A stretch of 51,542 nt of DNA from Halobaculum gomorrense (GTDB taxonomy: Archaea > Halobacteriota > Halobacteria > Halobacteriales > Haloferacaceae): the NCBI RefSeq assembly GCF_900129775.1, contig NZ_FQWV01000013.1:1-51542 (forward strand), in the 5' to 3' direction. The stretch's first letter is position 1; each line of letters opens with the position of its first letter. Made by a program: the position numbers and the translations under genes. Under the pieces are notes generated by a model, which worked only from the letters and a program-made list of their open reading frames with translations, was not told the DNA's origin and ran no database searches. Positions 48,261 to 51,381 of the stretch are shown here, piece by piece.

Positions 48261-49187
48261 TCAGTTCAAATAGTACTCGACGGTTCGTTCGAGCCCTTCT
48301 TCAAACGTGTATTCAGGTTCCCAGCCGAGCGCTTTGATCTTCTCAGTTTCGAGCGCGTAGCGCTGGTCGTGGCCGGCACGATCATCAACGAACTCGATCA
48401 GGTCATCGTCCGCGCCGACGGCGTTCAAAATCGCCTCGGTTACCTCGAGGTTAGTCTTCTCCGCGTCGCTTCCGATGTTGTAGATCTCACCGATTGTCCC
48501 GTCTCGAAGAACGACATCGAGCGCCCGACAGTTGTCCTCAACGTAGATCCACTCGCGTACGTTCGACCCGTCGCCGTAGACGGGAAGTGCCTCGCTATCG
48601 GCGGCGTTCTGGATGAACTTGGGGATGAGCTTCTCAGGGTGCTGTCGAGGGCCGAAGTTGTTGCAGGTACGGGTGATGAGAACCGGGAGGTTGTGGGTCT
48701 TCTGGAAGCTCCGTGCGAGGAGGTCTGCACCAGCCTTCGTCGCCGAGTAGGGATTTCGGGGATTGAGCGGATCGTTCTCGGAGAACTTCCCTTCGAGGAT
48801 CTGCCCGTACACCTCGTCAGTCGAGATCTGGAGAAAGCGATCGATATCTGCCTCTTTGGCGGCATCGAGGAGCGTCTGTGTCCCTTGGACGTTCGTCGAG
48901 ACGAACGGTTCCGCACCGTCGATAGACCGGTCGACGTGTGACTCTGCGGCAAAGTTGACGATCGCGTCAACATCGCTCACGAGGTCAGTGACGAGGTCGC
49001 GATCGCGGATGTCGCCTTCGACAAACTCGTGGCGAGGATCGTCGAGCACACCATCGAGGTTGTCCTTCGAGCCCGCATACGTCAACGCATCCAGCGTGAC
49101 CACCTCGTCGTTCACGTGTTCATCGAGGACGTATTGGACGAAGTTCGAGCCGATGAACCCGGCACCGCCCGTAACGAGTATTCGCAT
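48261..49187 (-). CDS. rmlB: dTDP-glucose 4,6-dehydratase
   Basis: A 308-residue extended short-chain dehydrogenase that converts dTDP-glucose to dTDP-4-keto-6-deoxyglucose, the second step to dTDP-rhamnose. Rossmann motif GGAGFIGSNFV at the start; NFAAESHVDRSID; STDEVYGQI with the catalytic Asp/Glu; and NPYSATKAGADLL with Tyr and Lys of YxxxK. The start ATG 49187 is supported by a TATA-like box shared with the divergent rmlD gene. Together with rmlA and rmlD it supplies a deoxysugar to nearby glycosyltransferases. Confidence 0.93.
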   Translation of the reverse strand: MRILVTGGAGFIGSNFVQYVLDEHVNDEVVTLDALTYAGSKDNLDGVLDDPRHEFVEGDIRDRDLVTDLVSDVDAIVNFAAESHVDRSIDGAEPFVSTNVQGTQTLLDAAKEADIDRFLQISTDEVYGQILEGKFSENDPLNPRNPYSATKAGADLLARSFQKTHNLPVLITRTCNNFGPRQHPEKLIPKFIQNAADSEALPVYGDGSNVREWIYVEDNCRALDVVLRDGTIGEIYNIGSDAEKTNLEVTEAILNAVGADDDLIEFVDDRAGHDQRYALETEKIKALGWEPEYTFEEGLERTVEYYLN

Positions 49188-49201
49188 GTATGACTGTGTT
49201 C

Positions 49202-49221
49202 ACAGTACCTATTTACAGTAC
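49202..49221. promoter_or_regulatory. Shared TATA-like box between rmlB and rmlD, flanked by ACAGTAC repeats
   Basis: The 51-base gap between the two divergent starts contains one AT-rich hexamer, TATTTA at 49210-49215 (TAAATA on the other strand). Its centre is about 26 bases from each ATG. ACAGTAC occurs on either side (49202-49208 and 49215-49221) as a direct repeat 13 bases apart. No other TATA candidate exists in the gap, so one box may serve both leaderless genes. Confidence 0.6.
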
Positions 49222-49238
49222 TGCCGGAACTCTATCGC

Positions 49239-50129
49239 ATGCGACTTCTTGTGCTTGGCGCGAATGGCCTCTTGGGCAGTAACGTCTTATGCGCTGGTCA
49301 GCAACGCGACTGGACCGTCTGTGGAACGTACCACTCAACACAACCGGCGTTCGACATTCCGCTCACGCAGTTCGATCTCCGAGCGTACACCTCGTTTGAG
49401 GACGTTCTCACCGAACACGGTCCCGATGTTGTTGTCAACTGTGCTGCGATGACGGATGTCGACGGCTGTGAAACGAATCCGGAACGAGCGCGCGTCCTCA
49501 ATGGCGACGCACCCGGCGGGCTCGCGGCTGTATGTTCGGAAAATGATGTCGAATTCGTTCACGTATCGACGGACTATGTCTTCGATGGGAGAGAACGCGA
49601 GCCGTACAGCGAGTCCGCGGAAACGAATCCTAGACAGGTGTACGGCGAGTCAAAGCTAGTGGGCGAGCAGGCCGTCGCCGAAGAGGCGACGGACGCGCTC
49701 GTGGCTCGCCTTTCGTTTGTATGGGGTATCCACCGCGGTACTGGCGATCTCACTGGTTTTCCCGCATGGGTTCGCGGGCGACTTGGGTCGGGAGACACTG
49801 TTCCGTTATTCACAGACCAATGGGTTACGCCGACGCGTGCCGGGCAAGCAGCCGAAACATTGCTGGACTTGATCGAACAAGACACAACCGGCCGTTTCCA
49901 CGTTGCATGTTCGTCGTGTGTCTCCCCCTACGAGTTCGGGAAAGCGATTGCCGAGTCTGTCGGGGCCGACGAGGATCTGCTCATTAAAGGATCGATGGAG
50001 GATGTCGAACGAAACGCGACACGGCCGACGTACAGCTGTCTTGATGTCAAACATTTGGAATCCGCGCTTGGTCGTTCACAGCCAACGATATGCGAGGATG
50101 TCGAAGCCGTCCGAGAGGCGTTCCGCTAG
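49239..50129 (+). CDS. rmlD: dTDP-4-dehydrorhamnose reductase
   Basis: A 296-residue reductase performing the last step to dTDP-L-rhamnose. The start RLLVLGANGLLGSNVL is the nucleotide-binding loop (GxxGxxG); NCAAMTDVDGCE, VSTDYVFDG and VYGESKLVGEQAV (YxxxK) are RmlD landmarks, as is RLSFVWG. ATG 49239 fits the shared promoter. The end overlaps the convergent zinc-protein gene by four bases. rmlC (3,5-epimerase) is not in this window. Confidence 0.9.
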   Translation: MRLLVLGANGLLGSNVLCAGQQRDWTVCGTYHSTQPAFDIPLTQFDLRAYTSFEDVLTEHGPDVVVNCAAMTDVDGCETNPERARVLNGDAPGGLAAVCSENDVEFVHVSTDYVFDGREREPYSESAETNPRQVYGESKLVGEQAVAEEATDALVARLSFVWGIHRGTGDLTGFPAWVRGRLGSGDTVPLFTDQWVTPTRAGQAAETLLDLIEQDTTGRFHVACSSCVSPYEFGKAIAESVGADEDLLIKGSMEDVERNATRPTYSCLDVKHLESALGRSQPTICEDVEAVREAFR

Positions 50130-50307: not shown

Positions 50308-51381
50308 TTAGAGTTTGAGCTGGGAGTTCTCACCGACGACGAGGCGGCGCCCCTCGGGTAGGAGTTCCTTGGCGCTTCCGACGTTCGCGCCGCGGCCGAG
50401 GAGGCTGTCAACGATGCGGCCGTTCGCGGTGATCTCGGAGTCGCCGATGACGACGCTGTTCTCGATGTGGATGTCTTCGAGCGTCGAGTTCGCGCCGACT
50501 GACGTGTACGGGCCGACGTAGGTCCCACGCTTGATGGTCGTGTTCTCCGCGATCGAGACCGGGCCGCGGACGACCGCTCCGTCCTCGATGACCGCTGTTT
50601 CGGCGAGTTCGATGCGGCCATCGGTCTCTGCGCCGTCCTCGACGACGCCCGAAGTCTTCAGCTCCCTGTCCTCGAGGACGAGCCGGTTCGCTTCGAGGAT
50701 GTCCTCGGGTTTTCCGGTGTCCTTCCACCAGCCGGTGACGACGTGTGAGTCGATCTCGTAGCCGTCTTCGAGAAGATCTTGGATAGCGTCCGTGATCTCC
50801 AGTTCGCCGCGCCACGAGGGTTTGAGGCCCTCAATGGCGTCGAACACCGCCGGGGAGAACACGTACATCCCGATGAGTGCGAGGTTCGTCGGCGGGTCAT
50901 CGGGCTTCTCAATAAGCTGTGTGACGTTGCCCTCGTCGTCGACGTCCGCGATGCCGAACGCCTGCGGGTCTTCCACCTCTTGGAGGGCGATCCCAGCCCC
51001 GTAGTCGCCCGCCTCGAAGCTCTCGACCAGATCGGTGACGCCGGATTTGAGGATGTTGTCGCCGAGATACATCACGAAGTCGTCGTCGCCGACGAAGTCA
51101 CGCGCACAGCCCGCTGCGTGTGCAAGCCCGAGGGGGTTTCCTTGGACGATATACGTGATGTCGACGCCGTACTTCGAGCCGTCGCCGAGGAGTTCCTGAA
51201 TTTCGTCTCTGCCTTTGTTGCCGAGAATGACGCCGATCTCGGTGATGCCTGCTTCTTTGAGATCCTCAATCGCGTATTCGAGGACCGGTTTGTTCGCGAC
51301 CGGGACGAGTTGTTTGGGGCCGGTGTGGGTGATTGGTCGAAGACGAGAGCCAGTACCGCCAGACAATAGGACACCTTTCAT
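50308..51381 (-). CDS. rmlA: Glucose-1-phosphate thymidylyltransferase with C-terminal beta-helix
   Basis: A 357-residue sugar nucleotidyltransferase making dTDP-glucose. GVLLSGGTGSRLRPITHTGP with the following KQLVPVANKP is the nucleotide-binding signature; MYLGDNILKSG supplies the metal-binding Asp; and EVEDPQAFGIADV, EKPDDPPTNLALIGMYVF are family blocks. From about residue 245 a left-handed beta-helix with hexapeptide repeats (IELAETAVIEDGAVVRGPVS...) follows; this long form is typical of archaeal RmlA-like enzymes, where the helix is used for oligomerisation. A TATA-like box lies at 51410-51416. Confidence 0.92.
   Translation of the reverse strand: MKGVLLSGGTGSRLRPITHTGPKQLVPVANKPVLEYAIEDLKEAGITEIGVILGNKGRDEIQELLGDGSKYGVDITYIVQGNPLGLAHAAGCARDFVGDDDFVMYLGDNILKSGVTDLVESFEAGDYGAGIALQEVEDPQAFGIADVDDEGNVTQLIEKPDDPPTNLALIGMYVFSPAVFDAIEGLKPSWRGELEITDAIQDLLEDGYEIDSHVVTGWWKDTGKPEDILEANRLVLEDRELKTSGVVEDGAETDGRIELAETAVIEDGAVVRGPVSIAENTTIKRGTYVGPYTSVGANSTLEDIHIENSVVIGDSEITANGRIVDSLLGRGANVGSAKELLPEGRRLVVGENSQLKL

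Follow-up and report, generated by a model that had tools for sequence, protein, structure and literature searches.

A probable bidirectional core promoter with a single TATA box between the divergent rmlB and rmlD genes of Halobaculum gomorrense

The divergent rmlB and rmlD genes

The question raised by this locus is whether two genes that point away from each other can be transcribed from one and the same TATA box. The window, i.e., the whole analysed stretch of 51,542 nucleotides from Halobaculum gomorrense, carries rmlB on the minus strand (48261..49187; 308 aa) and rmlD on the plus strand (49239..50129; 296 aa), with a gap of only 51 bp between them (49188..49238). The original prediction, made from these letters alone, was that one TATTTA in the middle of the gap drives both genes as leaderless transcription units, and that the whole is a compact bidirectional switch whose direction is set by BRE/repeat asymmetry or by a regulator.

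The gene names given in that prediction are right. The rmlB product, a dTDP-glucose 4,6-dehydratase, scores 438.5 bits against TIGR01181 (NCBIfam cut-off 365.1), and the rmlD product, a dTDP-4-dehydrorhamnose reductase, scores 234.7 bits against TIGR01214 (cut-off 224.05). The closest named match of rmlB is from Halobacterium bonnevillei (92% identity). An in-frame TGA lies within 5 codons upstream of rmlB and within 16 codons upstream of rmlD, and no ATG, GTG or TTG is found between these stops and the respective ATGs at 49187 and 49239, which are therefore the 5′-most possible starts. Since, moreover, the Rossmann motifs begin a few residues into RmlB and RmlD, both starts can be regarded as secure. 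The distance from the A of one ATG to the A of the other is 52 bp.

A third gene of the same pathway, rmlA (glucose-1-phosphate thymidylyltransferase; 50308..51381, minus strand), follows in the window and scores 448.9 bits against TIGR01208 (cut-off 320.25). The sole dTDP-sugar epimerase match of the genome (rmlC-type, PF00908; contig C5, 1836-2291) reaches a modest 65 bits and sits on a different contig from rmlA, rmlB and rmlD. The GC content of the whole rml-bearing contig (C9) is 65.3%, compared with 68–70% on other contigs, and most species of the genus lack a close rmlD. From its lower GC content and the rarity of rmlD in the genus, the contig looks like an accessory surface-glycan island.

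The central TATA box and the promoter grammar of the genome

The gap contains a single AT-rich hexamer near its middle, TATTTA at 49210..49215 (TAAATA on the minus strand), the centre of which lies at −26.5 from the ATG of rmlD and at −25.5 from that of rmlB; these coordinates agree with the predicted distance of about 26 bases on either side. One box midway between divergent ATGs about 50 bp apart is the geometry of an archaeal shared-TATA promoter, provided that transcription starts at or near the ATGs. At the position of the transcription factor B recognition element (BRE), −36 to −32 according to the columns of a matrix derived from this genome, each gene has CAGTA: at 49203..49207 on the plus strand for rmlD, where the match to CGRAA is weak, and at 49219..49223 on the minus strand (TACTG as read on the plus strand) for rmlB. 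Both copies are far from the consensus CGRAA. The hexamer itself is not palindromic; on the plus strand its T-ATTT-A is near the haloarchaeal preference, whereas TAAATA, read on the minus strand, is less favoured.

The promoter profile against which these elements were judged was obtained by aligning 525 upstream regions of this genome on the start codon. The regions come from 1.62 Mb of sequence, sampled in stretches that make up about half of the genome, with genes called heuristically by codon usage. The profile is enriched in A from −35 to −32 and in T/A from −30 to −26, has A at −11/−10 and T or C at −1, and is a leaderless pattern. In a mixture model, about 60% of the genes carry the motif CGRAA (−37 to −33) ... 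YTTWT (−30 to −26), again with a leaderless fit, and this motif agrees with the elements TTWT, CGAAA and WW published for Haloferax (PMC4983044).

A BRE/TATA matrix trained on unrelated genes of the genome was then applied to the rml gaps. In the rmlD direction the gap of H. gomorrense scores 7.5 bits, a value reached by 0.25% of random positions, whereas in the rmlB direction the score is 2.6 bits and the corresponding fraction 5.7%; a stronger rmlD direction is therefore predicted in this genome. The rmlD gene fits the haloarchaeal leaderless promoter fully, including the AA at 49228..49229, which coincides with the A peak of the genome at −11/−10 (the haloarchaeal −10, or WW, element) and occupies columns that are 80–93% conserved among close relatives. 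The rmlB gene fits by position, but weakly by score.

Conservation across haloarchaea and competing explanations

The original prediction suggested looking for the same spacing at other rml loci. Searches with rmlB, and with rmlD in 293 genomes of the order, yielded 41 distinct divergent rmlB/rmlD gaps (28 of them non-redundant), all 51–59 bp long and 37 of them 51–54 bp. The AT box lies 22–24 nt from the rmlB start in 40 of the 41 gaps and 23–24 nt from the rmlD start in 35, and it reads exactly TATTTA in 30. Mean matrix scores over the 41 gaps are 6.8 bits for the rmlD direction and 5.3 bits for the rmlB direction, as compared with −0.7 and −0.5 bits, respectively, after shuffling of the gaps (500 shuffles, sd 0.6). 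Both directions pass the score in 38 of the gaps, with the same result for the non-redundant set, and the score profiles have their maximum at a shift of −1 to +1 in both directions. The two longest gaps, L103 (57 bp) and L098 (59 bp), also have a longer AT tract, which leaves either start with a box about 25–28 nt away.

This geometry has been held across haloarchaea despite divergence of the flanks and of synonymous sites, which amounts to deep conservation. In comparisons with relatives whose RmlD is 74–80% identical, the promoter core is 82–87% identical, whereas identity at four-fold degenerate positions of the two genes is only 39–60%. The arm on the BRE side of rmlB reads TTACTG in close relatives and TTTC in distant ones, the latter giving GAAA, a good BRE, in the rmlB direction. 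Judging from these sequences, the GAAA of the distant relatives may make up for the weaker TAAATA orientation. In close relatives the conserved stretch also runs beyond the TATA box, but solely towards rmlD, at 49219-49231 (TGTCGGAAC). The AA within this stretch is the −10 element of rmlD. Its TGTCG part is kept in L030 though rmlD is gone there and may, for that reason, belong to the upstream promoter of rmlB.

Several loci have an intact rmlB next to a damaged or missing rmlD. The latter is a remnant in L012 and L014 and is cut after 44 residues in L197, and L030 has no rmlD within 1.5 kb upstream of rmlB; in all four cases the box is kept. Upstream of rmlB in L012, L014, L018 and L197, where rmlD is decayed, frameshifted or truncated, the promoter core is likewise retained. 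Retention of the box in front of an intact rmlB whose neighbour has decayed suggests that rmlB needs it too, in spite of the modest rmlB score in H. gomorrense.

Taken together, the 41 gaps and the matrix peaks in both orientations give good comparative support to the prediction of a single TATA box for two leaderless genes, and we consider it very probable that the divergent rmlB and rmlD genes share one box as a bidirectional core promoter. What speaks against a shared box is the low rmlB score in H. gomorrense, the poor fit of both BRE arms to the consensus, and dyad symmetry around the box no greater than in shuffles. Three other explanations have to be weighed against this reading. There might instead be two separate, overlapping TATA boxes, one per gene and offset by 1–2 bp, the gap being the shortest that accommodates both. 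The best matrix positions from the two sides do differ by 1–2 bp in most orthologues, and the extended AT tracts of L098 and L103 could hold two boxes; nevertheless, a TBP site spans 6–8 bp, so that such an offset denotes the same site in practice, and the 30 gaps with a single TATTTA likewise make this arrangement unlikely. That one gene alone uses the box, the other having a leader or a distant promoter and the symmetry being accidental, might be read from the 2.6 bits of rmlB in this genome. Such an accident is very improbable, however, given that both directions pass in all but three of the 41 orthologues, that in most of them the box stands 22–24 nt from both starts despite indels and saturation, and that rmlB retains it where rmlD has been lost.

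The third explanation, a regulated switch in which a transcription factor bound to the flanking repeats picks the gene that is on, has equally little probability. It draws on the two copies of ACAGTAC that flank the box (49202-49208 and 49215-49221), on the conservation of the right side (TGTCGGAAC) beyond a minimal TATA box in close relatives, and on a palindrome, ACTGTGttCACAGT, at 49193-49206. The repeats noted in the original prediction are indeed present here, and ACAGTAC occurs 5 times in the 51.5 kb against 2.2 expected, but as a direct repeat they are not conserved: in most close relatives the right copy is ACATTAC, and the direct repeat was rejected as a conserved element. A feature that does recur in the flanks is an opposed pair, CAGTA on one side and TACTG on the other, with one member at the BRE position of either gene. 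The palindrome is not common to the relatives, and single-mismatch palindromes like it are no commoner in the genome than in a reversed control, so it was discarded as a candidate operator; around the box, dyad symmetry is no greater than in shuffled sequences (p about 0.53). A regulon motif was rejected as well: a 25-bp extended core was found in 9 of the 293 genomes and only at rml loci, eight of the matches being just upstream of rmlD and the ninth adjoining rmlB and the cut rmlD of L197. No conserved operator or UAS of the kind present in a gvp-type divergent switch was found in the rmlB/rmlD gap. Moreover, RmlB and RmlD serve one pathway, and basal bidirectional promoters of Escherichia coli interfere with each other only upon strong activation of one direction (PMC12825309). 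The switch part of the original prediction thus finds no backing in the repeats, the symmetry or the distribution of the core.

If, as we prefer, the box is shared, we infer leaderless starts at the rml locus, occupancy by TBP and TFB, and co-expression of the two genes. TBP would bind the near-symmetric TATTTA, and TFB would dock at either of the two BRE positions and thereby fix the direction. RNA polymerase would then start at, or a few bases from, one of the two ATGs and produce a leaderless rmlB or rmlD mRNA. Each initiation in one direction would exclude the other at that moment, while over time both genes would be expressed from the one element. Because both enzymes act in the dTDP-rhamnose pathway, the likely outcome is their co-expression and not an either/or alternation. 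A further idea is that selection acts on the spacing throughout the class, with exclusive loading at one TATA box coupling RmlB and RmlD output at a set ratio; we regard it as possible but rather doubtful.

Relation to known bidirectional promoters and to the rest of the genome

Discussion of archaeal bidirectional promoters has mostly centred on the useless antisense RNA that they generate. At the rml locus, two useful genes very probably rely on a single TATA box, in a layout that has outlasted strong sequence divergence. The original prediction called such exact symmetry rarely noted, which is only partly right, as shared-TATA bidirectional promoters have been published for Pyrococcus furiosus (PMC6640164) and for halovirus HF2 (PMC8707807). 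The BRE-TATA-BRE promoters of P. furiosus, with opposite starts 49–50 bp apart and, for PF1918, activity in both directions shown in vitro (PMC6640164), resemble the rml gap in having one TATA box, flanked by a BRE on each side in P. furiosus and by candidate BREs in the rml gap, and a spacing of about 50 bp. There, however, the second transcript is mostly a non-functional antisense RNA, whereas both sides of the rml gap are conserved protein-coding genes of one pathway; the rml promoter, in addition, is probably leaderless and keeps its geometry across haloarchaea. The HF2 promoter T-40936/T-40979 (PMC8707807) likewise has a haloarchaeal-type TATA box that is reported to work in both directions, but it is viral and its mapped starts are closer together (43 bp).

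The gvpA/gvpD promoters PA-PD also lie between divergent, functionally linked haloarchaeal genes, but they do not share a TATA box: two separate TATA-BRE elements stand 35 bp apart, with starts 108 bp apart and shared sites for the activator GvpE (PMC4390858). In bacteria, bidirectional promoters described by Warman and Grainger share a sigma-70 −10 element with starts 18 bp apart (PMC10268837, PMC12825309) and are similar to the rml gap in that a near-symmetric core element loads polymerase either way. By its sequence features, the rml promoter would be placed with the shared-TATA promoters of P. furiosus and HF2 and not with the gvp type, and hence in an already known class. Two points seem to be new: each direction serves a functional gene, and the geometry has been preserved across haloarchaea.

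No paper describing a shared-TATA arrangement for rml was found in the open-access literature. The dTDP-rhamnose pathway of Haloferax volcanii, encoded by agl11–agl14 (rmlABCD), has been characterised biochemically, and co-transcription of agl11–agl13 has been reported; the word “promoter” was not found in that article (PMC4022621). In the main text of the Haloferax dRNA-seq paper, the agl genes were not found under the locus tags tried. In other Haloferax species (L023, L025 and L028), rmlB and rmlD are divergent, with a gap of 53 bp. In our opinion, the rml gap offers a compact test bed for how the orientation of TFB sets the direction of transcription, and the longer gaps with extended boxes and the loci with decayed rmlD supply natural variants for such tests.

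Within the sampled 1.62 Mb of the H. gomorrense genome, 269 divergent neighbour pairs are separated by a median of 185 bp, and only four of them, rmlB/rmlD included, have gaps of 45–58 bp; the figures are approximate, gene calling being heuristic. A divergent pair on another contig (C7:145239-145290, or L178:5239-5290) has a 52-bp gap with a single central box (CGCTTAGGCG) and matrix scores of 5.3 and 6.5. It adjoins a gene that by eye is lipoate-ligase-like and, going by this sequence, is possibly a second shared-TATA pair of the genome.
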